A DNA stretch of 64,000 nt. It comes from Liolophura sinensis. Its lineage: Eukaryota > Mollusca > Polyplacophora > Chitonida > Chitonidae. The translations under genes were made by a program, and so were the position numbers. The notes beneath the pieces were generated by a model. The model saw only the letters and a program-made list of their open reading frames with translations. It was not told the origin of the DNA and did not search any database. Shown piece by piece: positions 2,851 through 64,000 of the stretch. Each line of letters starts with the position of its first letter. The stretch's first letter is position 1. The stretch lies in assembly GCF_032854445.1 (NCBI RefSeq), contig NC_088302.1:36338191-36402190 (forward strand). The letters are read 5' to 3'.

Positions 2851-3714
2851 GCGTATGCATATTAATAAGATCTGTTAACATTGCCTGGTAATATTAGCAA
2901 TTTCATGCGGCGTCACTATAGCCCAACAGTCGATTTCTTTATGCATTATTTCATACAAAAGAGATGTCCTAACTTAAGTGTTAAACGTCAGTCACGGTTC
3001 CGAACCTGCCTGAACCGTACCATACTGTTCAGAAAGATCGAAGAGTTAGTCTGTGGCTTCGACAGTTATACTGCATGTGGCCGATTCCGACATTTCTGAC
3101 TTTGTCACAGTGCTTGGTTTTTGGTTATGGAATTTGAGATTTTGACATATATGTCTTAAGATAACATTAGGAAGATGGGCTAAAAATAAGCTCTAAAATC
3201 ATATTTAAATTATGTACCGGTAAATGTACTGTGCAATTACGAGTCTTGTACACATCACTGTGGAAGGACCACACGGTGAGATACATTAACATATGTTCCT
3301 CTGTGGTACCACAATGTCAAAACTGTTTGGTAATTTGCAGGGATATTAACTTGTCGTTGTTCTGTGTCATTCATGAATGCAACGAAACTGCACAGCAGCC
3401 ATGTGTGCAAAGTGTATAGATTGGTATATAGAATGCATTATGTCCGAAACAAAAAAGTCAGTACCAAACGCACACTGACCTTCATAAATAGAAAATGTTT
3501 CACTTATCTCGAAGCGAAAATCAACATGTTGATGTTTATAGTTAATAGGACTGATAAACCAACAATGAAAGTTGATTTTCGTCGCATGTGTGTTTGTGCT
3601 GTGTTGATTCATACATACGATAGCCGAATGTAACAAGTTCGTGTTTAATGTGTTCATCATTAGTTCCTTCCCCCAGGCCATGTGCAATATTATATTATAT
3701 CTTATATCAGTGTC

Positions 3715-3815
3715 AGATATTTGGATTTATTCCACCCATTTAGACCGCCTTCATATAAGTGATAAAGTCTTGAGCACGGCGTCAAACACCGATCAAGCAG
3801 TGATTCCGACCACTC
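3715..3815 (+). repeat. Old SINE 3' tail inside block B1
   Basis: The pattern TTATTCCACCC, then TATAAGTGATAAAGTCTTGAG, then GGCGTCAAACACCGATCAAG matches the 3' end typical of the SINEs in this window. It is also present at 10195-10295 and 13820-13920, so it predates the B duplication. Confidence 0.5.
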
Positions 3816-3948
3816 ACCAGTCACAGATACATCATCAGCTTCAGTCCGAGATCCACCCAAGGTCATGCGTGCGCTCCCTGCAATTCTAAATAGTCCTTCA
3901 TTCCTTATCCCCCGTAGATACCGCTTTCATTTATGTAAACCCCATGCA

Positions 3949-4213
3949 GCTGTATGTCACAGCTGAAAATGCCATCGGGAGTAAACAAAGCGTCTAAGAC
4001 CGCTTAGTTGAGATTGTCAGAACTATATGCGCATGAATAATTAAATGACAACGTGTGTCCAGGCAGAGGCATTTTGTGATGGCAAAATGTCACAGATGAA
4101 AATGCCATCTGGAGGAGACACAGCGTCTAATGCCGCTTAGTTGAGAGAGTCAGACATATATGCGCATAAATATTTGAATGACAACACGTATCCAGGCAGA
4201 GGCATTTTGTAAT
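3949..4213. repeat. 133-bp tandem duplication within block B1
   Basis: Two adjacent versions of a stretch running from GTCACAG(C/A)TGAAAATGCCATC to AGGCAGAGGCATTTTGT. Blocks B2 (about 10430-10570) and B3 (about 14060-14170) have one version each, so this is a local duplication in B1. Confidence 0.7.
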
Positions 4214-4739
4214 GGCCGTATGATTGCATAGATTACCCCGATGAACAGAGAAATAAAACAAATACGACGGAACTGGAATTGCTTGATGGTTTTAAGACTT
4301 GTTGGTTAGAGTTGTGATAGTAATTTATCCATATGCTGCTACATTCTCTTCTGACAAGATGTGAAGTAATGCTTACCTGTGACCCAGATCAGCAGTATCG
4401 GGGGCCTAATATACCGGATCTCTCTTCGTCATGCATATATGGTTTTGGCTATATGGTGATAAACAAACAGACTTCTGTAACCAAACATCTGCATTTCTGA
4501 TGTGGCCAGTGTAAAGATCCATCACTCCACGAAATATGCACGCCTATTCCCAATGACATTCCTTTCTAAGCACTAGTTAGGATTAAATATTACTCTCAAC
4601 TTATGCCGTTTGTGTCTAATTCCTGGAATTTAAAACCGCAGTGCAGAACAGAACCATTATTGCTGGTGTCATGTTTTTGTTGTGTTCTTGATTATATTTT
4701 CCACACGGGTTATTCCCTCACAGCACTATAACAACAACG

Positions 4740-4860
4740 CATGCGTTCTTACGAGACACAGAATGTTATGACTGCCATTTTGCCAGCTATCACACTATCG
4801 TCTCTGCTCTTGTCTTACTCTCTATGCTGTACGACTAATTATATAATAAATATTTCATTG
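4740..4860 (+). repeat. Dispersed repeat family X, fragment
   Basis: Contains GCCAGCTATCACACTATCG followed by TCTTACTCTCTATGCTGTA, the core seen at 30.8-33.5 kb and 52.9 kb. Confidence 0.6.
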
Positions 4861-4879
4861 TCGGATAAGGTAACGCACC

Positions 4880-5185
4880 CAGTTTCCTGAAAACCCAAGG
4901 GCGAAACACTTACCATATACTAGTATATACTTTATCACTATAAAAAAAGCCTTTGTACTATTTGTCCACAAATAACCAGTTACCATGGTAATACAGTGCT
5001 GTAAATATGTTCAACAGGATGTAACGCATGGTACACATAATGGTTGGTTTTACCTTGATACTGACTGGGCGACACGACATGTCGTCCTTTCTGTCAACAT
5101 ATGCTGACTGCCAGACTGAGTATACTCAGAATTAGAATTTAGCCTACAGAATCATCAATAACATTTTTCTTGCCACGAAATGCCA
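4880..5185. repeat. Segmental duplication block C, copy 1
   Basis: Aligns to 17005-17345. Shared strings include GGGCGACACGACA, GTCGTCCTTTCTGTCAACAT and CTACAGAATCATCA / CTGCAGAATCATCA. No coding potential is seen. Confidence 0.7.
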
Positions 5186-15244: not shown

Positions 15245-15762
15245 AAGTCCCCGAGCTATACTAGGTACCCGACAAACATCTTGACTGGTTTATGGGTAGA
15301 CGAAACCAGAGTATAGCTGGATGAAGTCCCCGAGCTATACTAGGTACCCGACAAACATCTTGACTGGTTTATGGGTAGACGAAACCAGAGTATAGCTGGA
15401 TGAAGTCCCCGAGCTATACTAGGTACCCGACAAATATCTTGACTGGTTTATGGGTAAACGAAACCAGAGTATAGCTGGATGAAGTTCCCGAGCTATACTA
15501 GGTACCCGACAAACATCTTGACTGGTTTATGGGTAGACGAAACCAGAGTATAGCTGGATGAAGTCCCCGAGCTATACTAGGTACCCGACAAACATCCTGA
15601 CTGGTTTATGGATAGACGATACCAGAGTATAGCTGGATGAAGTCCCCGAGCTATACTAGGTACCCGACAAACATCCTGACTGGGTTATGGGCAGACGAAA
15701 CCAGAGTATAGCTGGAAGAAGTCTCCGAGCTATACTGGGTACCCGACAAACTTCCTGACCTA
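15245..15762. repeat. 79-bp satellite array, about 6.5 units
   Basis: Units start at 15245, 15324, 15403, 15482, 15561, 15640 and 15719, a strict 79-bp period with few substitutions. Each unit holds AGCTATACT and, near its other end, the inverted match AGTATAGCT. The array therefore alternates between short (about 14-nt) and long (about 47-nt) hairpin loops. The last unit is partial and more diverged. Confidence 0.95.
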
Positions 15763-35353: not shown

Positions 35354-35556
35354 TTATACCAAATCCAGTTGAATCTTAATGTTCGCTTTGTTGTCTGACA
35401 ATGCCTTAACGTCTTCTGACCAGCCTTCCGCCACGTTGGTCAGTCTACAACGTTCCATGTCCTTGCACAAATCTTTTTCTATATTGCCCCTATCACTGGT
35501 ATTGAGCTTGTCATCAGGTGGTTTTGCGTCTTTGTCCGAACTACCGGCAGAACTGT
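35354..35556 (-). other. Possible continuation of GPCR C-terminal tail in shifted frame
   Basis: Open frame of 67 codons from DSSAGSSDKD to IKIQLDLV, overlapping the printed stop. It is hydrophilic and rich in Asp, Lys and Ser, as receptor tails often are. It would make a protein of about 545 residues. This is inference from frame continuity; no homologue is recognised. Confidence 0.4.
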
Positions 35557-36716
35557 CCCCCACCCAGTCTTGGCACCGGCCCCACCACCGCCTCGGGAAC
35601 CTGTAAATACTGTCCGGAGGATGCCGGATTGCTTGGGCTAGATTTGGGCCGGCTACTGTTGCCCGGACACTGGTCCCCATCCATATCAACTAGTGCAGCG
35701 CCTCCTCTTAGTGATAAAAGGGATCCGAACGTCTGGAGGCCGAGCTGGCTACGATCATAGGTTGGATCACTAATCACTGACACCGAACGTGGCCGTCTCA
35801 GAATGGCAGCATAGGTCTGTAGACTATTCCGATGTTTCCGCTCCTCGGTGTGACTGTCCGGGTGGACTCGGGTCTTCAGCAGTCTGCGGAACGCCAAGCG
35901 AAAATTCCTGCTAAACACAGCATACAGTAGCGGATTGAGCGCACAAGGAATTAAAGACAGCCAAGTTGTGGTTGTTACGGCGAGGTTTGTGCTGTGCTCA
36001 GCTTCTCCGCTCCAGTCGTGCACAGAGAGCTTGGTGTTTATTCCCATGAAGGGAAGAAAGGCCAGACTAAACACAATAAGCAGACTAACCAACCGCGTAA
36101 TCGCCTTTAGTTGCCTGCTCAGCGGAGACGAGTTACATTCACGGCGTCCATCTTCCAAAGCGTTGTTGTTGAAATACTCAGAGTAAGGATCGGCAAAGCT
36201 TTTGGTGGCGCTGGGGAAACTCAGCATCGACAGCCTCTTGATCGGGGCCATGAAAGCATATGCTACAGGGCCGCTAGCATTCACGGTGTTCGCATTATGA
36301 CAGTCGCTGGCACCCTGTATTGATTTGCCGTTGGCATCTTTGATCTTATTTGCGTGTTCTCGCGCAACTAGTATTATTCTACAGTAGCAGAAAAGCATCA
36401 ATGCCAACGGCAAGATGGAATTAGTTATCATCATGACTACTGTATATTTGGCGTTGCTCTCCCATAGTATGAAGCAAGAAAATCTTGCTTTTTGATAGCA
36501 AATCCCATTCCAGCCCACCAACGGGGGCAGGCTGGTCCCAATGGCGATGCCCCATACCAAAAGCAGCAAGACGGAGGTATACCGCCAGACTGACCAGGAG
36601 GTGTAGCGAAGACACTGGATAATGGCATAGTAACGGTCAAGACTGATGACAGCTGAGCTCAGAGCCGAACTCGTTTGAAACACGCTCGCTAAAAATCCCA
36701 TGGCTTTACACATATT
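35541..36716 (-). CDS. GPCR exon 2 (TM3 to C-terminus)
   Basis: Starts N-M-C-K just after a TTTATTTCAG acceptor and encodes TM3-TM7 plus a basic, Ser-rich cytoplasmic tail (RRPRSVSVIS at about 397-406 is a plausible kinase site). As printed, the frame stops at 35541 after GGGQFCR. Removing one base of the G5 run at 35557-35561 would move the reading into the frame that stays open for 67 further codons, to 35354. The printed end may therefore reflect a sequencing indel or a real frameshift. Confidence 0.88.
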   Translation of the reverse strand, partial: NMCKAMGFLASVFQTSSALSSAVISLDRYYAIIQCLRYTSWSVWRYTSVLLLLVWGIAIGTSLPPLVGWNGICYQKARFSCFILWESNAKYTVVMMITNSILPLALMLFCYCRIILVAREHANKIKDANGKSIQGASDCHNANTVNASGPVAYAFMAPIKRLSMLSFPSATKSFADPYSEYFNNNALEDGRRECNSSPLSRQLKAITRLVSLLIVFSLAFLPFMGINTKLSVHDWSGEAEHSTNLAVTTTTWLSLIPCALNPLLYAVFSRNFRLAFRRLLKTRVHPDSHTEERKHRNSLQTYAAILRRPRSVSVISDPTYDRSQLGLQTFGSLLSLRGGAALVDMDGDQCPGNSSRPKSSPSNPASSGQYLQVPEAVVGPVPRLGGGQFCR

Positions 36717-38035
36717 CTGAAATAAAACAAAGAAAAGAAATAACACATTTTAAACCAAAAAAATTAACTACAAAAAATTCACAGAATGAAAAATGTTTTT
36801 TCTGAGTACTGTAAATAATTAATTTCCACTTAGCACTCTGCACCGAGTGCTTTTATGTCTTAAGCTCATAGTTATTGATTTGAAATTTTTGGACGTGCTA
36901 ATGTTAATGGTTTAGTTAAATGTAACACAAATCGTTCCGCTCATGTTAGCAGATACCCATCGGATTGCTAATCAAGTCTGATCGAATATCTGGGCGAACC
37001 AGTTGGATAGAATAAATAAATTTAAAAAGAGATTTGCTCTGAGATATTTTTATTGTTAAAATTAAGTTGGTTTCTTTCTCAATCCCATAACGAACTGGAC
37101 TTTCACGATCCCGGACGCAATTTATGGCGGTCAGGACAATAATCTATTTGATCAGAATAACGAATGGCGACTGTTCTGATCGCATTACGAGAACAAGGAC
37201 AAAGGGATTAATTTAGTTGAAGATTAAGTGGGATAAAGCTGTCGATAATTCTCCAGGGAATCGACAGAGCGATCGATAAGTTATTTTGAGGAGGCTTTTC
37301 TCTTCATACCGGAGCTGTGATTTCCTTCAGTTAGCGCCTTCACTTAAGGGGGAATAACCCACCAGTAACATCAACGGATGTGAGCTGCCCGAAATTGTGC
37401 TTTACTACTGAGGTTGTCAAGACAATTACTGTGCTCACGAATACACCGAACGAAATGCATACAGCTTTATTGACATTCATATCGTGCTGCCTTCTCTTAA
37501 CACACAAGATCTATATCCAATAATTGGTCTGTATAAGTTTCGTTAAATGACATAACATGTAAATGGCGGAATGATTATTCCATTGTCAAGCCTTAACGAG
37601 ATATCTCCATTGTGATCTCCGCGTATATACTGAGAAAACTATAAGTTGCAGGGAGTGGGTGGCGGAGGACTTGAACACACCATATGTGTGTTCAAAACCG
37701 GCCATTGAAATGGAATTTGCTGACTCCCCATGTGGAGCTTTGGTGACAAGAAAGGGTTCACGGCACCTGCATGTGACGGTTTGCGCAGTCTGACGTTATT
37801 TATTCATTTGATTTGTGTTTAACGCCCTAGTCATGATATTTTCTCTTATGAAGGCTGGACAGTTTATGGATGGAGGAAACCGGAGCGCCCGTTTGAAAAC
37901 TTTGCATGGGGACTTTACAAATCCCCCATGTGAAAGGCCACAGCACTACCAACAAGAGCTCTTGGAACTCTTGGAAGAGCCAGCGAAAGACCCATATCTT
38001 TATTTCAGGGAATATCAGATGCTTGCTCATAATAT

Positions 38036-38066
<31 letters not shown>

Positions 38067-41000
38067 TTATAACTGATGTTTTATTTCACTAATACGACGG
38101 CGGCCAACATTATTGTAGGAGGAAACCCGTCTGAGCCCACGGCAAACCCAAGAATACCCTCAGGCTGCTAGCAGACTTGCCGTGTCCGATCGGAGAGGAA
38201 GCCACCATAAGGTGGAAACTCACCGCGATGGGATTTGGTCTGAGGTGCCTGAGGCATTGTGCTGCCCTCGGCTACCGAGCCTCCGCACGGTCATAATAAT
38301 GAGCAGTATATATCATCACACAAAGGAGACATTCCGTATACACCTCCAAGTCCGATTAAGTCTCCAAGATTAGCAATGTTCCTTCCTCCCATCGTGGATG
38401 ACAACTGAAGCTGAAGTGTTTAAAGGAGAAGAAAACAAAAGAAACAAACAAACAAAAAAGCCTAAATCAGATGAAAGAGCTTGAAACCTTATTGCAAATA
38501 TGGTGATCAATATTTTTGATTTCTTCTTTCAGGAGAAAATGAGTATTTGGAAATATGTTTGAATGTCTAGTAACTGGGACTACAATTTGGTATATATCGT
38601 CTTTGCTTTATAATTCTCTAAATAAGGATATGATGCATACGTAATGAATTTATTGGAATTTAAATGTTATGCCCAAACACAGGCCTTTAATCTGATTTAA
38701 ATATCTTTAATCCGGTAATATTTATGGTTATATTTTTAAAATATAAATATAATCATAATCCAGAATGAGCACATTTATTAGCTGAAAACACCAAATTCTA
38801 GACCAAATATATTTATTAAACATATACTACATCCTTATTTATAACATTATTAAACAAAGACAATATATTCCAAGAGGTGGTCCCAATATACCCACCATAC
38901 AAATATTATTTTTAAATGCCTTTTCCTCTTTAAAGAAAAATCGAGAAAAAAAATTGAAAAAAATACTGAAAACCATATTTACAACTAAATTTTCGCACTC
39001 TTTCATCTTAACTTGACGAAATTTTTATGTTTTCTTCACCTTTAAGGACTTCGCTATTCACCGGGCAAATCAATGAGTTAGACCTGCTTGTTTGACACGA
39101 AAATGTGTAGATGGGGCACAAATATTAAACATCTCTACTCAGCCAAGTTCGAATAGCAGGAATTCACACATTTTGTTAAAAGATCCTTAGTTAAACTGCT
39201 TTCTTCCATCCTCCATAGAACTGTTTCGCATACTCACATACGCTTACCGATAGCGATACGTTATCACTTTATGAGCTTTGTGAACAAGCAACTGATACCA
39301 GCCGCCACACACGTCAGTGCGGATATAGGAATATCTCGTAGATAGTTTAAATTTGCTATCCATGCATGGAATGGAAACTATTGCCTGGAATTTCTGCTCT
39401 TTTAATTGAGACATTTCAGATTGAATACTGAGAAAAAAGCAGAATTTACTATTTAAAAAAAGTGGGGGGAGGGACAGTAGTGTAAAAATCCGAGAATTGC
39501 GGCAAAAACCGCGAAACCTACTTTTCTTCATGTGTGAACGCAAACGGCTGGGGTTCTCATATTCGTATCCCTATAGGTAAAGGTTTCGTCTATAATGGAT
39601 GGATCTCATATGCCCAGTGCTCAACTTCCCCTCCTTGTCACAAGGTTTTTTTTCATTTCTTTCTCGGTGAAACAAATTGTCATGACGCCACACAAATATT
39701 GCACTGTAGTCAATGTGTGAGCAAAAAAGCGAATTTAAATATTGACAAAATATGAAATGTTACATGACCGAGATTCTTTGTGATTCTACTGAGTTTAAAA
39801 TTCTTGACAAAAACTAAAAACAGAACATAGTGCCAATAAACTACAAAATTTGTCTCAACAATGGTCACGCGTATGATGTCTCTTGCTAGGAAATACCATG
39901 GAAATACATGCATGGCGGTATGTAGTCAGAGCAATATAACTGTTGACGACGACATTGTAAACACTGGATACCTCACCTACCTGAAATAACCTATATGTTG
40001 AGTGAGGAAAAGGCCATTTAGAATATCAATAGATGAACGACACAAATAGCCATGACCTTGTAAACATGACTGAATGCCAATGGACAGTTATAGACGTCCC
40101 CAACAAAGAAAATAAGCCTGTTACTATTCTGTACTGTAAATTGTCAGTTCAAAATAGGTACCGGCTTGTTAACTCTCATTTACTTTCACGCACCAATACT
40201 AAACGGAAATTGGCCTATGGCCGGGAAATTGCAGGCTACATCAGGACAAAGGTGGCGTCCTTTCACAAAGTACGAGTGTCCAAACGGGGATATTCAATCA
40301 CCATCCTGGTCATCAATGAATGTCCAATTAGGCAGAGTGCGTTGAGAACTGCGTGTATCATGTGGTAGTGTTGTCCAGACCAGTACCTTAGTGGGATGAC
40401 TTCCTCAAACAAAAAACCTATTGTTCACATTTTGTCCTCATAATGTGTGGTCACACTTGACTCACTATTACATGCTCATAATGTGGTCAAACTTGACTCA
40501 CTATTACATACTCATAATGTGGTCAAACTTGACTCACTATTACATGCTCATAATGTGGTCAAACTTGACTCATTATTATATGCTCATAATGTGGTCAAAC
40601 TTGACTCACTGTTACATGCTCATAATGTGGTCAAACTTGACTCACTATTACATACTCATAATGTGGTTAAACTTGACTCACTATTACATGCTCATAATGT
40701 GGTCATACTTGACTCATTATTATATGCTCATAATGTGGTCAAACTTGATTCACTATTACAGGCCGTTGACCCACTAATTGACCTTTAAGTTGATTCGATT
40801 GGAAGAATTTTATCACTAGTAAATCACTAGAAGAATTTTATCACTAGTAAATTCTACCATAATAAAACGTTTCTATTACACTTTTTGATGAAACATGATA
40901 ACCATAAATAGGCTATACACCTGATAATCCTGCAAGTTTCCATACGATACCTAACACGATATGACAGATACATCGCTGACAGGTGCAATACTCACATTTG

Positions 41001-56618: not shown

Positions 56619-56708
56619 ATGTCCCGCTCTGTGGTACAGAGTGTGATAAGTGTCGAGCAGGATGAAGGAGTTGGGGCCAGAGTGCGCAGAAGTGTGGGGC
56701 GATCTGAG
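56619..56708 (+). CDS. PIR: Pirin exon 1
   Basis: Encodes M-S-R-S-V to V-G-R-S-E, including the conserved EGVGARVRRS. The donor is GAG/GTAGGT. An acceptor-like TTTTTCAG at 56512 suggests that this exon begins with 5' untranslated sequence. Confidence 0.93.
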
Positions 56709-59700
56709 GTAGGTCATTTGTTTAAACAGGTAAGGCATGAAAATTGGACCCTCATTGTCTCAGACGATTATAATGTTAACTCCTAATGAGAAGGTGTCAG
56801 CCTTTTGAGCACTAAGTGACTAGGGTCGCTTGTTTAATTCTGGTTTCCTCTCACTGAAAATCTAGCTGACTCAGAGTATCATCAAATAAGTGAGAAATTA
56901 CCTCGATCACCAATCAAATGAATAAAGTTCAGGGAACTGAAATGGCTGGCGAAAGCCTAAATGCAGTATATCAAACCTGACAAATTAAACTGCTGTATAT
57001 TGCAGTGCAAATCTTGTCCCGCTTTTCATAATTGTTACATTTTAATGTAACCATTTACAGATTTCTGCATATGTATGTTTATATACATTTTGATTTGGGT
57101 ATAACACCTCCGACAAGAATGTCTTAATATATGATGGCTGTCAGATTTATGGGTGGAGGAAATTGAACTGAACCTAGCTGAAAAAAAAAAACCCCTAAAA
57201 AACACTGCCATTTTAAAGGATAGATTTTTGGTTTCATTTTTAATCCGCAACAGAAATATAGTGAGGGAATGGTTCACTCCAATTTACATGTTTCAGAACA
57301 GTTGTGTTGGCGAACTGTTGTCATAATGCAGAAAGACAAAACTTATGTAATTTCATTTTTATGTTGTAAGTTGAGAAGCTTGGACCCCTTCCTCATGCTG
57401 GATGAGTTCAGAGTTACTTCCCCTGCTGGGTTTCCTGATCACCCTCACCGAGGCTTTGAAACTGTAAGTAACGTAAATTTTCAACTGTCAGCTTTGTGCT
57501 CACATTGTGTGTGTGAATTTTGGTAAATTTGGATACAGGTTTTTTTTAATACAGGTATCTCATGTAGGGAAATACAATCAAGGCAGTCATGGTTATGATG
57601 ATAATGAAGATGGGGCATGACTGTAATAGAATGAGGTGCCCAACTCCTATCCTTAAGGCACTCTTGGTTCAAGGAAGTTATAGATTTCCCGCTCTCATTG
57701 TTTGAGACCTTTGTAACAATATGCAGTGGATGGTGTTTGTGCATACATGCTGTTTTTTTTATTTTTTTTTCATTTATTTATTATTTATTGGTGCTCTGTG
57801 CCATACTTAAGAATATTTTACTTATATGAGGCCAGCTGTCCACCCTCTATGTGGCATACTGCAAATCTGTACCTTAAAGCAGGGACTGATGTAACTTTAC
57901 TCGCAGGTTACAGTAACATTGAAAAGTTCATCACTAATTTGCCAAAGATCATCAGTTTACTTAGGGCCTTCACAGCTGTATAAGTGAAAAATAATAATAA
58001 ATCAAAAAAAAATAAATAAAATACCCTCAAGTTTGATGTTCACCATGCATATCATAATAGTGATATACATGTATAAGTGTGCATCAGTTCTAAGTTTGGT
58101 AAAATCAAGTTCTAAGTCTGGAGGAATCAAGTTCTAAGTCTGGAAGAATCAAGTTCTAAGTCTGGAAGAATCAAATTCTAAGTCTGGAAGAAAGGTTTGA
58201 TAGTGCTGTGAGTTGCCAGTCATGCCAGTCATATTGGTGTTTGGCCATCAGGATAATCAGGTTGGGCCTGGACACCCAAATTTATGAACTTGCCATACAA
58301 TATTAGGGTTTTGTAGAAAAAATTGTCTTCTTATTGCAGGTGACATACATGTTAAAAGGCTCAAGCAGGCATGAGGATTTCTGTGGACACAAAGGAACTA
58401 TAAAAGCAGGAGATTTACAGGTGAAAATGAACAACTAGTAGATCTTGCCAAAAACTTTATGGACCTGTATGTAAATACCTGTATATAACCATGTGCTGCA
58501 TCAGTAATTTTAATGCAATAATGTGTTATATCATAATCCTTGTACATGTATTTGAATCATTTGAGATCACTTTCACAAAGTTGGTATGGAGACAAATGTA
58601 TAATTAAAACGAATGTATATTCGCACTGTCCATATGCATCATGGTGGTAGAGCTATCATTGGAGGTAGATTCTAACTTCCATTATGTACGTGTCATGTGT
58701 ATATTTTTGGGAAAATATGTGTCTTAAATTTATTGTGTCTGAAAAACAACCTTAACTTTATGTACGATGACATAATTGACAAATATCTGTCTTCTGACTG
58801 ATTTAGTTTTTTTTTGCTAAGTGGATGACAGCGGGGCGGGGTATAGTTCACTGTGAGATGCCTCATGGTGCTGAGGAGGCTCATGGCCTACAACTGTGGG
58901 TGAATTTAGCTCAGAAGGACAAGATGGTCAAACCGGTTTATCAGGAGTTGCTCAGTAAGGATATACCAGTGGCTACTAAAGATGGGGTTACCGTCAAGGT
59001 CATCGCAGGGGAGTCATTTGGAATCAAGGTATAATTTATTACATATTGTCAGAATTGTTTGAATATAGTGGAAATTTTTGTGGAGCATGCTGCACATATA
59101 TACTGTGAATTGACAGTGCTAGTTTATTAGTGGCTAGCAGTTCTGTGCTGGTTAAAATGTTTTTCAAAATTTCCCTGTTTTGATTGTTTTCTGGACCTTC
59201 TTGACTAAAAACATATCATAAGGCTTTGTTGTGGAGTCTTACGTGAAAGAGACGACTTGACTTCTGAGAAATTGTAATGTGTCACAGTTGCGAATGTTTG
59301 CATGGTTTTGCTCTGGGTACTCTGGTTTCCTTCTGTGTCACAGTTGTGAATGTTTGCATGGTTTTTGCTCTGGGTACTCTGGTTTCCTTCTGTGTCACAG
59401 TTGTGAATGTTTGCATGGTTTTTGTTCTGGGTACTCTGGTTTCCTTCTCCCATTAAAGTGGCTGCCATCGTACAAGTGAAAAATTATGCAGTGAACAACA
59501 GTCAGATCAATAAATCTTTTAATCAGTGTGGTAGTGAGTCTAATAGTACACCTTTTTGTATGTACTTGTCAATTATTATGTACTCTTCTTGACTTTGACA
59601 GTATGAAAAATTATTTTGTAATTGATACATACCCCATAATACAGCTTTAACTGGAAGTACATGAGTAAAGAATAACAGTTGCAAATTCATAATAACTGTG

Positions 59701-62700
59701 ACATCCCTCAAAAAGTTAGTGTCATCTTGCACTCAGAAACTCATTAGATGAATGGCAGAATGATCTGTGACTATGTGAAAACTATGACTGATCGATAGAC
59801 AGATGGAAAGAATGACTGATAGAACAGCTACAAATGATGGTTTTGACTTTGCAGTCGCCTGTGTACACAAGAACTCCAACTCTGTACCTAGATTTCCACA
59901 TGTCCCCAGGGTCTAGAATGAGTCAGCCCATTCCCTCAGGGTGGAATGCTTTTGTTTACATGCTCTCAGGAACAGCCCACTTTGGTAAGATTTTTACTGA
60001 GATATGTACATATGTTTGGATTGAAGAAGTTTTAAGCTGTTCTGTACAATATGCTTTGTATTTTAGACATAGTGCGTGTATACATGGATGATGAAGTAAC
60101 CATGGTTACTGTTTTACATAAGATCTAGGATAAAACATAGGTCTCATCTTCAATCCTGAGCGATTGATTTGTCCTTTAAACTTGGCTGACTGACCTCAAC
60201 ATAAGGCAGTCCTTTAGGCCAAATGTCTGTCCTACCTGCAGTATGTACAGAATGACTAGACGTACTGAGCTACATGGACGTCACATATAATTTCTTTGGC
60301 ATATCCTTTTAGTGAGCAGCACTTTCAAATTGTCTGCATGAAACATGCACAAGATGACAGTATGTTAATTGATATGACAGTGATAATGTTGATAAGTGTG
60401 TAGACTCATATTTAAGGTAACAGGCAGAAGCATACATGGTTGTGAATCAGTTGGTACATGTGCTGTGCTTTCACATATTTTAATTTAATTGAAAAGATGA
60501 ATCAAAGGAATAAATGAATGATTGTGGCTTAGGGAGCATTCAGATCCAGCACCCTGATATATTTCCCTGATTATCTACATAGGTACAAACGTTTTATATT
60601 CAACTAATAGCTGTTCATATATGAAATAACTTGTATACACATGCACATTTGCCCTGGACGCGTTGATAATAACAGATCTCTTACCGGGACTACTTCCAAA
60701 GCCGACTGCCTTTTGCCAGTCACAGCACTTCTGCTGAGCAGTCTGCGTTAACAACAGGTCGCTGACCACAGCTAGAGGACGGTAGGTCGGCTATCGTGTT
60801 CTAAAATACAGTGGGTTTCAACACCTGGTATTTTTGAGGTTTCGGCGATATTTTGGTGATGGATGGAAGAAAGTGTATGCACAGATGAGAACAGTCAATT
60901 CTAGGCTGAAATTATATCAGAAAATTAAAATCTTAACTAACAAATTAGTATAAACAACAAATTATAAATATGTTTATGATTCTGTAGTTATAATTATTTT
61001 TGCATTTGAACCAGTAGCCTGATAATATGACACATTGTGAATGTTCAGGTGAAAACAGTAAAGATTGCAAGTACGAGCTACATGTGCGTTAAAACTGTCT
61101 AAACATGATAAAGTTGAATAGAAACTTTATCATCATACCTGTGTGTAACTATATTGTACATCCTGGCTTTTCAACAGGGCCCTCAGAATCTCAGTCAGAA
61201 GGCCTGCCTCATCATACCTTAGTCCTAGGGGATGGGCAGAGACTGGAGGTGGAGAACAAGGTGGGTATGGTCTATAATGGTACCTGTTATTATTTATTTA
61301 TATATTTATTTATATGAATGTTTTTTCTTATGGCATACTACAGAATATTTCACTGACAGCTACCAACATTATGGAGGGAAGAAACTGGGCAGTTAGAGAC
61401 TGAGGGAAACGACCATCCGCAGGTTGCTGGCAGACCTTCCCACTAAAGGAAGCCATCATGAACTGGTCTTTAAGAGAGGCTCCTGAGTTTTTGCTAGGCT
61501 GCACTGCCACCTGGCTGTGGAGGCTCCCAAATGCACTTCAGTCATAGCATGTACATATAATTCATGGAGGTTCTTTTAACAGTGGCTTTTAGAGAAGTAT
61601 CTATACTGTATTTGCCCTAAAAATTTGCATGAACAACACCTTTTTTAGAGGCAGATTTTTAGTGCTGAAGGATATCATAGGCTTCGAAATAAAACTGAAT
61701 TAAGACATCTTTCTAAGATGGCTAGAACTCTCAGAATCAAAAAAAAAATAAAAATAAAAGATGTGGAAGTTGGCCATATGAAATACAGGACATGGAGTAG
61801 GTTTCATAAATGCCATTCATTAATCAGAAACAAACAATTTGTGAGTTAAATACTGGACAAAATATCCAATGACGGCATTGTCAGGCTGCTATCAGTAAGT
61901 CATATAAATTTCTGTTAAAGTGTGGTGTTTTTTTTCTTTAATTTCCAGTCATCAGAGAAATGCCACTTTGTGTTGATTGGAGGGCAACCTTTGAATGAAC
62001 CAGTTGTGCAGCACGGTGGGTATACACTATACTTAACTGTTTGTACCACTGTTGTTCAAAAAATGAATTATATTTTCTCTGAATCTGTTTATCGTTACAT
62101 GTAAATGAAGAATATAAATACAAAGTATTTTCCCCATAAGGATTTATTTCCATATATTTTGACCTGCAGTATTTGGACAGTAAAGAAGTCTTGTTAAACT
62201 TTTATATATACTGGGCCTGGTTGTTTAAAGCTGTTTCTAGTTTTAATACCAGATTGAACTTCAAGTCAAGTGTTCAGTTTAGTATTCAGTCCAAAAATAA
62301 TTGCATAATGGTATTTTAAATGTGAACTGTAAGTCTGCTGCTGTTATACTTTGACTGTGGACAACTGCATTGGCTGATCAATTTGACTGAAATTTAAATA
62401 TAAAAAGTGACTTAATGCCAGTATAAGTTAATACATTTTAGAACAATTGGGCCCAGTGCTTCCAAGTAGTAAATCCTGATCAGCTAATTTACACTCTGAT
62501 CTTTTGTGTCTTGACTGACTGTTATTAGACCAGTTAAACAGTAGCTAAGAGATTGAGAGAGCAGTTCAACATTTATTTAATATTTACTCACTCTTAATCT
62601 GCCTATTTATATCTCTTGTTGTGCGTGGTAAGGTCTGCCATCTACCTGCGGATGGTCCTGGGTTTCCCACAGGCTCTGCCCGGTTTCCTCCAACCATAAT

Positions 62701-63018
62701 GTTCTCCACAATCCTATTAGTGAAATATTCTCAAGTAAGGTGAAAAACACCAATCAAATAAATAAATGAATAAATCTCTATTTATTTATGATGGTGTAAA
62801 TTGGTGAATGATTTGTAAACCCTCTAACATTAAGCCTAATATAGGTCAATTGGTTTTCCACAGTGACATCAAATTTATACATTTTCTGTTTGATTCCAGG
62901 ACCCTTTGTCATGAATACTCAGCAGGAAATTCAGCAAGCCATAGCTGACTACCAGCGGGCTAAAAATGGGTTTGAAAATGCAAAGTCATGGGAATCTGAT
63001 TATGTGAAAAGTCGCTAA
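56619..63018 (+). CDS. PIR: Pirin, eight-exon gene model
   Basis: Joins 56619-56708, 57371-57463, 58340-58420, 58822-59028, 59855-59984, 61178-61260, 61949-62015 and 62900-63018 (289 residues; human pirin has 290). All introns are GT-AG and all phases agree. Pirin is a nuclear bicupin iron protein that acts as a redox-sensing partner of NF-kB in vertebrates; some family members degrade quercetin. Metal ligands are present: H54 and H56 (FPDHPHRGFET) and H98 and E100 (GRGIVHCEMP). The second cupin domain is complete, and the C-terminal helix ends in exon 8. The start ATG at 56619 is the first in frame after a TAG at 56532 and aligns with the vertebrate start. SINE copies lie in introns 6 and 7. 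A second version of the last exon lies downstream at 63663. Confidence 0.97.
57371..57463 (+). CDS. PIR: Pirin exon 2
   Basis: 31 codons, LRSLDPFLMLDEF to PHRGFET. It includes the first two iron-ligand histidines (H54, H56). The donor is ACT/GTAAGT. Confidence 0.97.
57750..57840 (-). mobile_element. SINE 3' fragment in pirin intron 2
   Basis: T-rich tail, then TATTGGTGCTCTGTGCCATA and CTTAAGAATATTTTACTTAT, then divergence. Confidence 0.55.
57900..58022 (+). mobile_element. SINE-3 fragment in pirin intron 2
   Basis: TTTGCCAAAGATCATCAGTT, TACTTAGGGCC, CAGCTGTATAAGTGAAAAAT and an A-rich tail with AATAAATAAAA. Confidence 0.5.
58087..58195. repeat. 24-bp tandem repeat, about 4.5 units, pirin intron 2
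   Basis: Unit GTTCTAAGTCTGGAAGAATC plus AA, repeated with a few substitutions. Confidence 0.9.
58340..58420 (+). CDS. PIR: Pirin exon 3
   Basis: 27 codons with HEDFCGHKG and AGDLQ. It is one residue shorter than the human counterpart in the loop before HEDFCGH. The acceptor is TTATTGCAG. Confidence 0.97.
58822..59028 (+). CDS. PIR: Pirin exon 4
   Basis: 69 codons. It starts WMTAGRGIVHCEMP, which carries the third and fourth metal ligands (H98, E100), and it spans AHGLQLWVNL and KDGVTVKVIAGE. Confidence 0.97.
59275..59515 (+). repeat. 56-57-bp tandem repeat (3 units) running into a SINE tail, pirin intron 4
   Basis: Units start GTCACAGTTG(C/T)GAATGTTTG at 59281, 59337 and 59394, each ending CTGGGTACTCTGGTTTCCTT. 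The third continues into AAAGTGGCTGCCATCGTACA and AGTGAAAAATTATGCAGTGA, which is SINE-3 3' sequence. An internal SINE segment seems to have been amplified. Confidence 0.85.
59855..59984 (+). CDS. PIR: Pirin exon 5
   Basis: 43 codons plus one base: VYTRTPTLYLDF and SQPIPSGWNAFVYMLSG, part of the C-terminal cupin. It ends in phase 1. Confidence 0.97.
60000..61177. other. Pirin intron 5, no feature recognised
   Basis: AT-rich intronic sequence. A somewhat GC-richer patch at 60650-60790 is unexplained. Confidence 0.5.
61178..61260 (+). CDS. PIR: Pirin exon 6
   Basis: Completes a Gly codon, then HHTLVLGDGQRLEVENK. The donor is AAG/GTGGGT. A SINE sits in the intron that follows. Confidence 0.95.
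61288..61530 (-). mobile_element. SINE-1, near full length, pirin intron 6
   Basis: A TTATTTATATATTTATTTAT tail, then CATACTACAGAATATTTCAC, CGACCATCCGCAGGTTGCTG, CTTCCCACTAAAGGAAGCCA, and a head ending CTGGCTGTGGAGGCTCCC. It is diverged, with small deletions. Confidence 0.85.
61949..62015 (+). CDS. PIR: Pirin exon 7
   Basis: 22 codons plus one base: CHFVLIGGQPLNEPVVQH. It ends in phase 1, so it can join in frame to either exon 8 or the downstream exon at 63663. Confidence 0.96.
62618..62778 (+). mobile_element. SINE-1, 5'-truncated, pirin intron 7
   Basis: GTGGTAAGGTCTGCCATCTA, CCTGCGGATGGTCCTGGGTT, GCCCGGTTTCCTCCAACCAT, AAACACCAATCAAATAAATA and a (TAAA)n tail. Confidence 0.88.
62900..63018 (+). 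CDS. PIR: Pirin exon 8 (canonical last exon)
   Basis: The acceptor TTTGATTCCAG is followed by GPFVMNTQQEI, KNGFENAKSWESD and a TAA stop. It is closer to vertebrate pirin than the downstream copy. AATAAA strings in the (AAAT)n stretch at about 63430 could serve as its poly(A) signal. Confidence 0.95.
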
Positions 63019-63662
63019 CCTACCTGTAGGCTGTTTAGTTTTATGGATGAATTGAAACAAAACATGACAGAGGTCATTTGGGGTCCGTAAATACTCATAT
63101 TTATTAACATATATTCCTACATTTATACATGTACGTGCTATTAGAAGCATGGTTGTGTAATGAAAATTTTATGATTCGCTGGATTTCTGTCATAAATGCT
63201 GTTAGACTGATATTTGTCTTGAACATTTTTGAGTGGAGTTTTATTTATGTGATTTAACAAGATTTAAATTACTGTGATAATAATCGTTCTTATAAAATTT
63301 TGACTTATTATGAAGGTCCTTCCATATGTCCATAATGTTCAGTTAAACACGTTTATAGCTGAAAAAAGAAATGTGAACATATACATTAATTGGGCCCTAT
63401 GCATGATATACACTTTTTTAAATATAAGTAAATAAATAAATAAATAAATAAAATCACAGCTGACACATATCCGTTTATTTTCCCATTGTTTTGTGCTTCT
63501 TGTTTAGGGTTTAATATATAGATAGCTCTGGGGTATCAATTTTCAGGCTGTTTTGGATTCTATTGCATTTCTGTTTACATGTGCTTTGCAGTGTATACGT
63601 GGTTTCTGCAGTTTTGTTAATCATATGTTCTTTTAAGTTCGTTTCCTCTTGTCAAGCAATAG

Positions 63663-63784
63663 GCCCTTGTGTGATAAACACAGATAAAGAGATAGCGGAA
63701 ACTGTGAACGACTACATTCTTGAACGGAAGGGTTTTGAAAATGTTCGCAGTTGGAACTCTTTTGTTGTGTTAGAGGATGTATAG
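63663..63784 (+). CDS. PIR: Candidate alternative last exon of pirin (diverged duplicate)
   Basis: After the acceptor GTCAAGCAATAG, the frame completes the same Gly codon and reads PCVINTDKEI, KGFENVRSWNS and a TAG at 63782-63784. It has 39 codons against 38 in exon 8, with about 15 identical positions (P, V, NT, EI, DY, GFEN, SW, S). The DNA is far more diverged than the key residues, which suggests the coding sequence was kept by selection. It would give a 290-residue isoform with another C-terminus. It could instead be the remnant of a second pirin copy, but no other exon of one is seen before the window ends. Confidence 0.7.
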
Positions 63785-63832
63785 TTCGCCATGATCATCA
63801 AGAGAATATATCTATACACATATTCATGTAAC

Positions 63833-63838
63833 AATAAA
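63833..63838 (+). terminator. Poly(A) signal AATAAA
   Basis: AATAAA lies 49 bases after the stop of the downstream alternative exon, a normal spacing for a short 3' untranslated region. Confidence 0.6.
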
Positions 63839-64000
63839 ATAAGAGGTCTTGGTAATTCCTAGGTGAGGAAAATGTATTCATCTTTTGTTGTCATAATGTA
63901 TTTGATGTTTTAGCGTTAAATTGTTCAGCTGATCTTGCCTGCAAGAAAATACATGCCAGCTAAACTTAATATTCGTCATAGTTTTAAACGTATTACTGTG

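Follow-up and report, generated by a model that had tools for sequence, protein, structure and literature searches.

A second, homologous last coding exon behind the pirin gene of the chiton Liolophura sinensis, and its possible use as an alternative C-terminus

Genes that end in homologous alternative terminal exons have been described before, as three papers illustrate (PMC3228551, PMC9013439, PMC10513286). The gene for human capping protein beta is ended by homologous last coding exons (PMC3228551). Drosophila pip possesses mutually exclusive terminal exons, which the source takes up under untranslated regions (PMC9013439). In Pteromalus, duplicated alternative C-terminal exons alter the end of one protein, PpSerpin-1, and 21 C-terminal forms were confirmed by RT-PCR (PMC10513286). 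The pirin gene of the chiton Liolophura sinensis resembles these genes in having two homologous exons that could end its protein. It differs from the first in that capping protein beta is another protein and a known case, and from the Pteromalus gene in the number of exons, which is two in the chiton, both of them predicted from DNA. Another insect serpin-1, that of Manduca, is cited by the Pteromalus paper. The initial annotation of this locus had proposed a switchable C-terminus as something new; with homologous alternative terminal exons already described, that holds at most for pirin.

Pirin is described as a redox sensor that acts through bound iron and binds proteins of the NF-kB family (PMC9362109, PMC10688961). 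The first of these papers numbers the iron ligands of the human protein His56, His58, His101 and Glu103 (PMC9362109), and a review describes the C-terminal domain of human pirin as containing one alpha-helix (PMC7915911). Among the literature matches listed for pirin together with splicing, last exons, molluscs or chitons, none was seen to describe an alternative last exon for pirin, the human protein included. It is possible that pirin isoforms are annotated elsewhere.

The window (the whole stretch of DNA analysed, 64,000 bases of contig NC_088302.1 in assembly GCF_032854445.1, positions 36,338,191 to 36,402,190) holds a complete animal-type pirin gene on its plus strand, with eight coding exons spanning 56619-63018 (Table 1). 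A GT donor directly follows the phase 1 end of exon 7. The predicted spliced products have 289 residues with exon 8a and 290 with exon 8b, and internal stops are absent from both. Residues 2-283 of the product with 8a match human pirin (E 5.4e-129 among PDB sequences), and residues 4-286 of the human chain (PDB 1j1l and others) align with it, iron-ligand positions included; all four ligands are identical in the chiton protein. Both spliced forms exceed Pfam's curated cut-offs for Pirin and Pirin_C, with Pirin_C scoring 115.8 bits with 8a and 93.9 bits with 8b. The Pirin_C match ends at residue 268 in the form with 8b versus residue 274 in that with 8a, and exon 8 codes for the end of the matched part together with the tail beyond it. 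Intron 4 contains a tandem array of period 57 (59278-59448). Elsewhere in the window are tandem arrays of period 79 (15245-15759) and period 36 (40437-40760) and, on the minus strand at 35541-36743, much of a receptor of the rhodopsin family (Pfam 7tm_1, E 1.2e-35). Downstream of pirin, a 395-residue open frame on the plus strand with recurring DHTYA-like motifs (L002:2481-3665) had no match in Pfam up to an E-value of 0.01.

Table 1. Exons and candidate processing signals of the chiton pirin locus (positions in the window)
Feature	Position	Strand	Remark
Coding exon 1, ATG start	56619..56708	+	Protein match to human pirin
Exon 2	57371..57463	+	
Exon 3	58340..58420	+	
Exon 4	58822..59028	+	
Exon 5	59855..59984	+	
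Exon 6	61178..61260	+	
Exon 7, last shared exon	61949..62015	+	Phase 1 end, supplying base 1 of the split Gly codon
Exon 8a, canonical last coding exon with stop	62900..63018	+	Match to human pirin C-terminus
Candidate poly(A) signal for 8a transcript, five overlapping AATAAA; maybe mere simple repeat	63431..63452	+	
Competing AG acceptor upstream of 8b	63655..63656	+	Exon start 63657, in-frame Ala-Ile added
Exon 8b, additional last coding exon homologous to 8a, own stop	63663..63784	+	
AATAAA, candidate poly(A) signal for 8b transcript	63833..63838	+	48 bases past 8b stop

Exon 8b begins 644 bases after 8a, shares its strand and phase, and encodes 40 residues, including the split Gly, ahead of a TAG stop. 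The coordinates that the initial annotation had assigned to exons 7, 8a and 8b were right, as were its observations that an AG precedes both last exons, that each completes the split Gly codon of exon 7 and that each has its own stop. Its estimate of about 15 identities in 38 residues is borne out as to homology, with the count amended to 17 of 36 residues at ungapped codons. The DNA of these codons shows 49 differences in 108 bases, with 14 at first, 12 at second and 23 at third codon positions. The third-position excess is mild (P 0.033), and nine of the 16 identical residues that have degenerate codons are coded by a different codon. Synonymous differences are saturated; since their proportion of 0.77 exceeds saturation, the Nei-Gojobori dS is not computable. 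In a direct DNA comparison the two exons align at 58% over 83 bases with an E-value of 1.2. A recent duplication that carried similar flanks along was rejected, as the DNA comparison of the surroundings gave short matches only; the best two (E 0.008) were one in AAATAA-type repeats and one 36-base inverted match.

Of 34 compared positions, 23 have the same residue in human pirin and 8a; 8b retains 13 of these and departs at 10, and therefore 8b has evolved faster than 8a. At the other 11 positions 8b is identical to 8a at 3 and to human pirin at none; the comparison weakly suggests that the duplication may be later than the split from vertebrates. The extreme ends read DYVKSR in 8a versus FVVLEDV in 8b, and the net charge, by simple count, is -4 for the 8b segment, 0 for 8a and +2 for human pirin. 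Neither GC content nor hydrophobic moment had discriminating power: the GC content of 8b, 0.40, is ordinary for the non-coding DNA nearby, being attained in 19% of 1,062 overlapping windows, and by hydrophobic moment no amphipathic-helix signal was found in the 8a, 8b or human segment, so that the calculation lends no support to exon 8 coding for the C-terminal helix of pirin.

The relationship of 8b to pirin can be recovered from its peptide by itself. Searched against PDB sequences, the 8b peptide has human pirin as its top match (E 0.0036), and pirin accounts for 7 of the 8 matches with E no higher than 10. With the same limit, each exon peptide gave two matches in the 609-Mb assembly, itself and the other exon (8b found by 8a at E 7.9e-4, 8a found by 8b at E 6.5e-4). 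The Pfam model Pirin_C, used alone against the assembly at E up to 1, gave four matches with 8b absent, which is consistent with 8b being diverged and short.

A separate downstream pirin copy to which 8b might belong, which the initial annotation had named among the findings that would speak against its reading, was looked for by protein searches. In the window and the 10 kb downstream of it these gave no downstream pirin gene, and all matches besides the nine pirin exons had E-values of at least 0.30 (matches being reported up to E 50). The search was extended to the assembly, which comprises 632 contigs and 609,464,459 bases, has gaps, and is one in which weak matches can be missed. There the full pirin protein gave 14 matches (E up to 10). 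Nine lie on C8 and correspond to the eight exons plus 8b, four belong to a gene on another chromosome, C1, and the remaining one, on C6, has an E-value of 4.17 and holds a stop. No second set of upstream exons for 8b was found by protein searches in the window with its 10 kb or in the assembly, the C1 gene aside, and 8b is therefore not part of a complete neighbouring pirin gene; a complete tandem pirin gene was rejected on the same ground. Internal mutually exclusive exons were likewise rejected, since 8a and 8b each end in a stop and the protein search of the window and the 10 kb downstream gave no further pirin coding exon. Partial genome duplication has been reported for this chiton assembly (PMC12005716); a second copy of the pirin gene bearing 8a and 8b was not found in the assembly.

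The C1 gene (about C1:75,972,000-75,981,200) is pirin-like in that it has Pirin and Pirin_C matches and a GPFVMNT motif near its end. It differs in being diverged, in its C-terminal sequence (by eye) and in that an intron interrupts the segment encoded by exon 8 (also by eye). Full pirin found it; neither exon peptide did so by itself. We rejected a connection of 8b with the C1 gene on these grounds: a different C-terminus and intron position by eye, and no match from either peptide. The C1 gene has features of its own. At L001:7092-8371 it contains about 14.5 copies, 95% matching, of an 88-base unit arranged head to tail, and this unit comprises the last part of a coding exon together with its GT donor. 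When 14 motif-bearing copies are read in one frame, 7 of them hold a stop. Here the end of an exon and its splice site have been turned into a minisatellite within the gene. The next intron upstream holds another tandem array (L001:4934-5865, period about 78), whose unit resembles, by eye, the end of the preceding exon and its donor; such an event may have occurred twice in this one gene. An array of about 130-base repeats, also recognized by eye, lies downstream of the gene (L003:~3000-5150).

Whether the protein encoded by 8b has been under selection was addressed with two kinds of simulation. In the first, the 49 differences were scattered at random on 8a or on 8b, with 20,000 simulations each way. 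About 9 of 36 identical residues are expected under such placement versus the 17 observed; at least 17 occurred at a frequency of 0.0001 from 8a and 8b alike, and 68-83% of the simulated exons contained a stop. Random placement is too generous a test because constraint on 8a alone also raises identity, and an equal-exposure simulation was therefore added. In it 8a and 8b are given equal mutational time, and 8a is constrained in both of the models compared. Flat priors were used, the 8a sequence served as the start, and runs were accepted if identity fell within 1 and the differences at each codon position within 2 of the data and no stop was present. Indels were left out, and so the neutral model should be favoured. 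With 8b constrained, 1,418 of 349,351 runs reproduced the data, compared with 17 of 377,453 when 8b was neutral; given these priors, the ratio is about 90 to 1. The omega of 8b in accepted runs had a median of 0.24 (5-95% range 0.03-0.70). These simulations favour protein-level constraint on 8b over neutral decay, in agreement with the selection on the protein proposed in the initial annotation.

Processing signals around the two exons were scored with an acceptor matrix derived from the gene's seven acceptors other than that of 8b, the 8a acceptor included. The acceptor of 8a scores 10.2, and that of 8b at 63663 scores -0.95, a value equalled or beaten by 38% of the AGs in the window. The seven other pirin acceptors range from 1.9 to 15.5 and are equalled or beaten by 0.06-16% of window AGs. 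The AG that the initial annotation placed before 63663 is thus present but weak, and an in-frame AG 6 bases upstream scores better. This AG, which would start the exon at 63657, scores 7.5, within the range of the other acceptors, and is the second best of the 34 AGs in 63019-63800; its use would keep the frame, giving H-A-I-G-P-C instead of H-G-P-C. One branch-point-like TTAAT occurs, at 63617. Between 8a and 8b the only AATAAA is the simple repeat listed in Table 1, and the candidate signal at 63833 should be read against the fact that about 9% of window positions have an AATAAA in the next 100 bases. Exon 8a is probably the default, with 8b a minor or regulated choice.

The reading that we favour, with reasonable though not high confidence, is that the last coding exon of pirin, a gene of which the assembly yielded a single animal-type copy, was duplicated in tandem and that the duplicate, 8b, has been kept as an alternative last exon. 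Splicing of exon 7 to 8a, with the transcript ending near 63450, would give ordinary pirin. If transcription instead ran past the site at 63450, exon 7 could be spliced to 8b at 63663 or 63657 and the transcript would end near 63850. The resulting pirin would have its last ~39 residues swapped for a related, diverged and more acidic version. Which tail is made would depend on whether 8a is spliced in and the 3' end forms early, or transcription continues and 8b is spliced in. Judged from its sequence, 8b is real, well formed and probably functional, and changed partner binding or stability would be the most plausible effect of its tail.

Alternatively, 8b could be what remains of a second, tandem pirin gene: its last exon, orphaned by a recent deletion of the other exons after the whole gene had long been under selection, and now unused and decaying. 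Such a history would explain why constraint lasted long and also why the acceptor at 63663 is weak. The equal-exposure simulation covers constant constraint, so that constraint which ended recently lies outside its models, and an exon like 8b stays free of stops for a while, with a chance of about 45% after 0.2 neutral substitutions per site. However, searches of 63019-63662, of the next 10 kb and of the assembly, in which weak matches can be missed, gave no trace of the other exons of a second copy, and 8b would have to have escaped the deletion beside the end of the surviving gene on the same strand. We consider this origin unlikely. Splicing of 8b at a low level as noise, or into a minor transcript that has no function of its own, would fit the weak acceptor at 63663 and the faster evolution of 8b, but neutral drift since the duplication is disfavoured by the simulation ratio given above, and this account is very improbable. 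Chance similarity or an assembly error, for which the shortness of the exon alone speaks, is hardly credible, given that each exon peptide matches only itself and the other across the assembly, that a chance match on the same strand, 644 bases away and in the right phase at this locus is very unlikely, and that the 45% base difference far exceeds allelic divergence. The heterozygosity of this chiton is given as 1.24% in a paper (PMC11068029) that was published under the name Liolophura japonica and renamed L. sinensis in a correction (PMC12441733).

The evolutionary mechanism is in itself not new. If 8b is a mere orphan, it shows tandem gene loss leaving a terminal exon behind. Under the favoured reading, in which 8b is kept as an alternative last exon, a bolder and rather doubtful extension is that chitons, and perhaps molluscs generally, possess a regulated switch that places two conserved tails on one iron-binding core and so makes two pirins differing in partners or stability. 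If one gene does make two tails, the C-terminal segment of pirin would become testable as an element of specificity or stability, with the two chiton forms as a natural variant pair.
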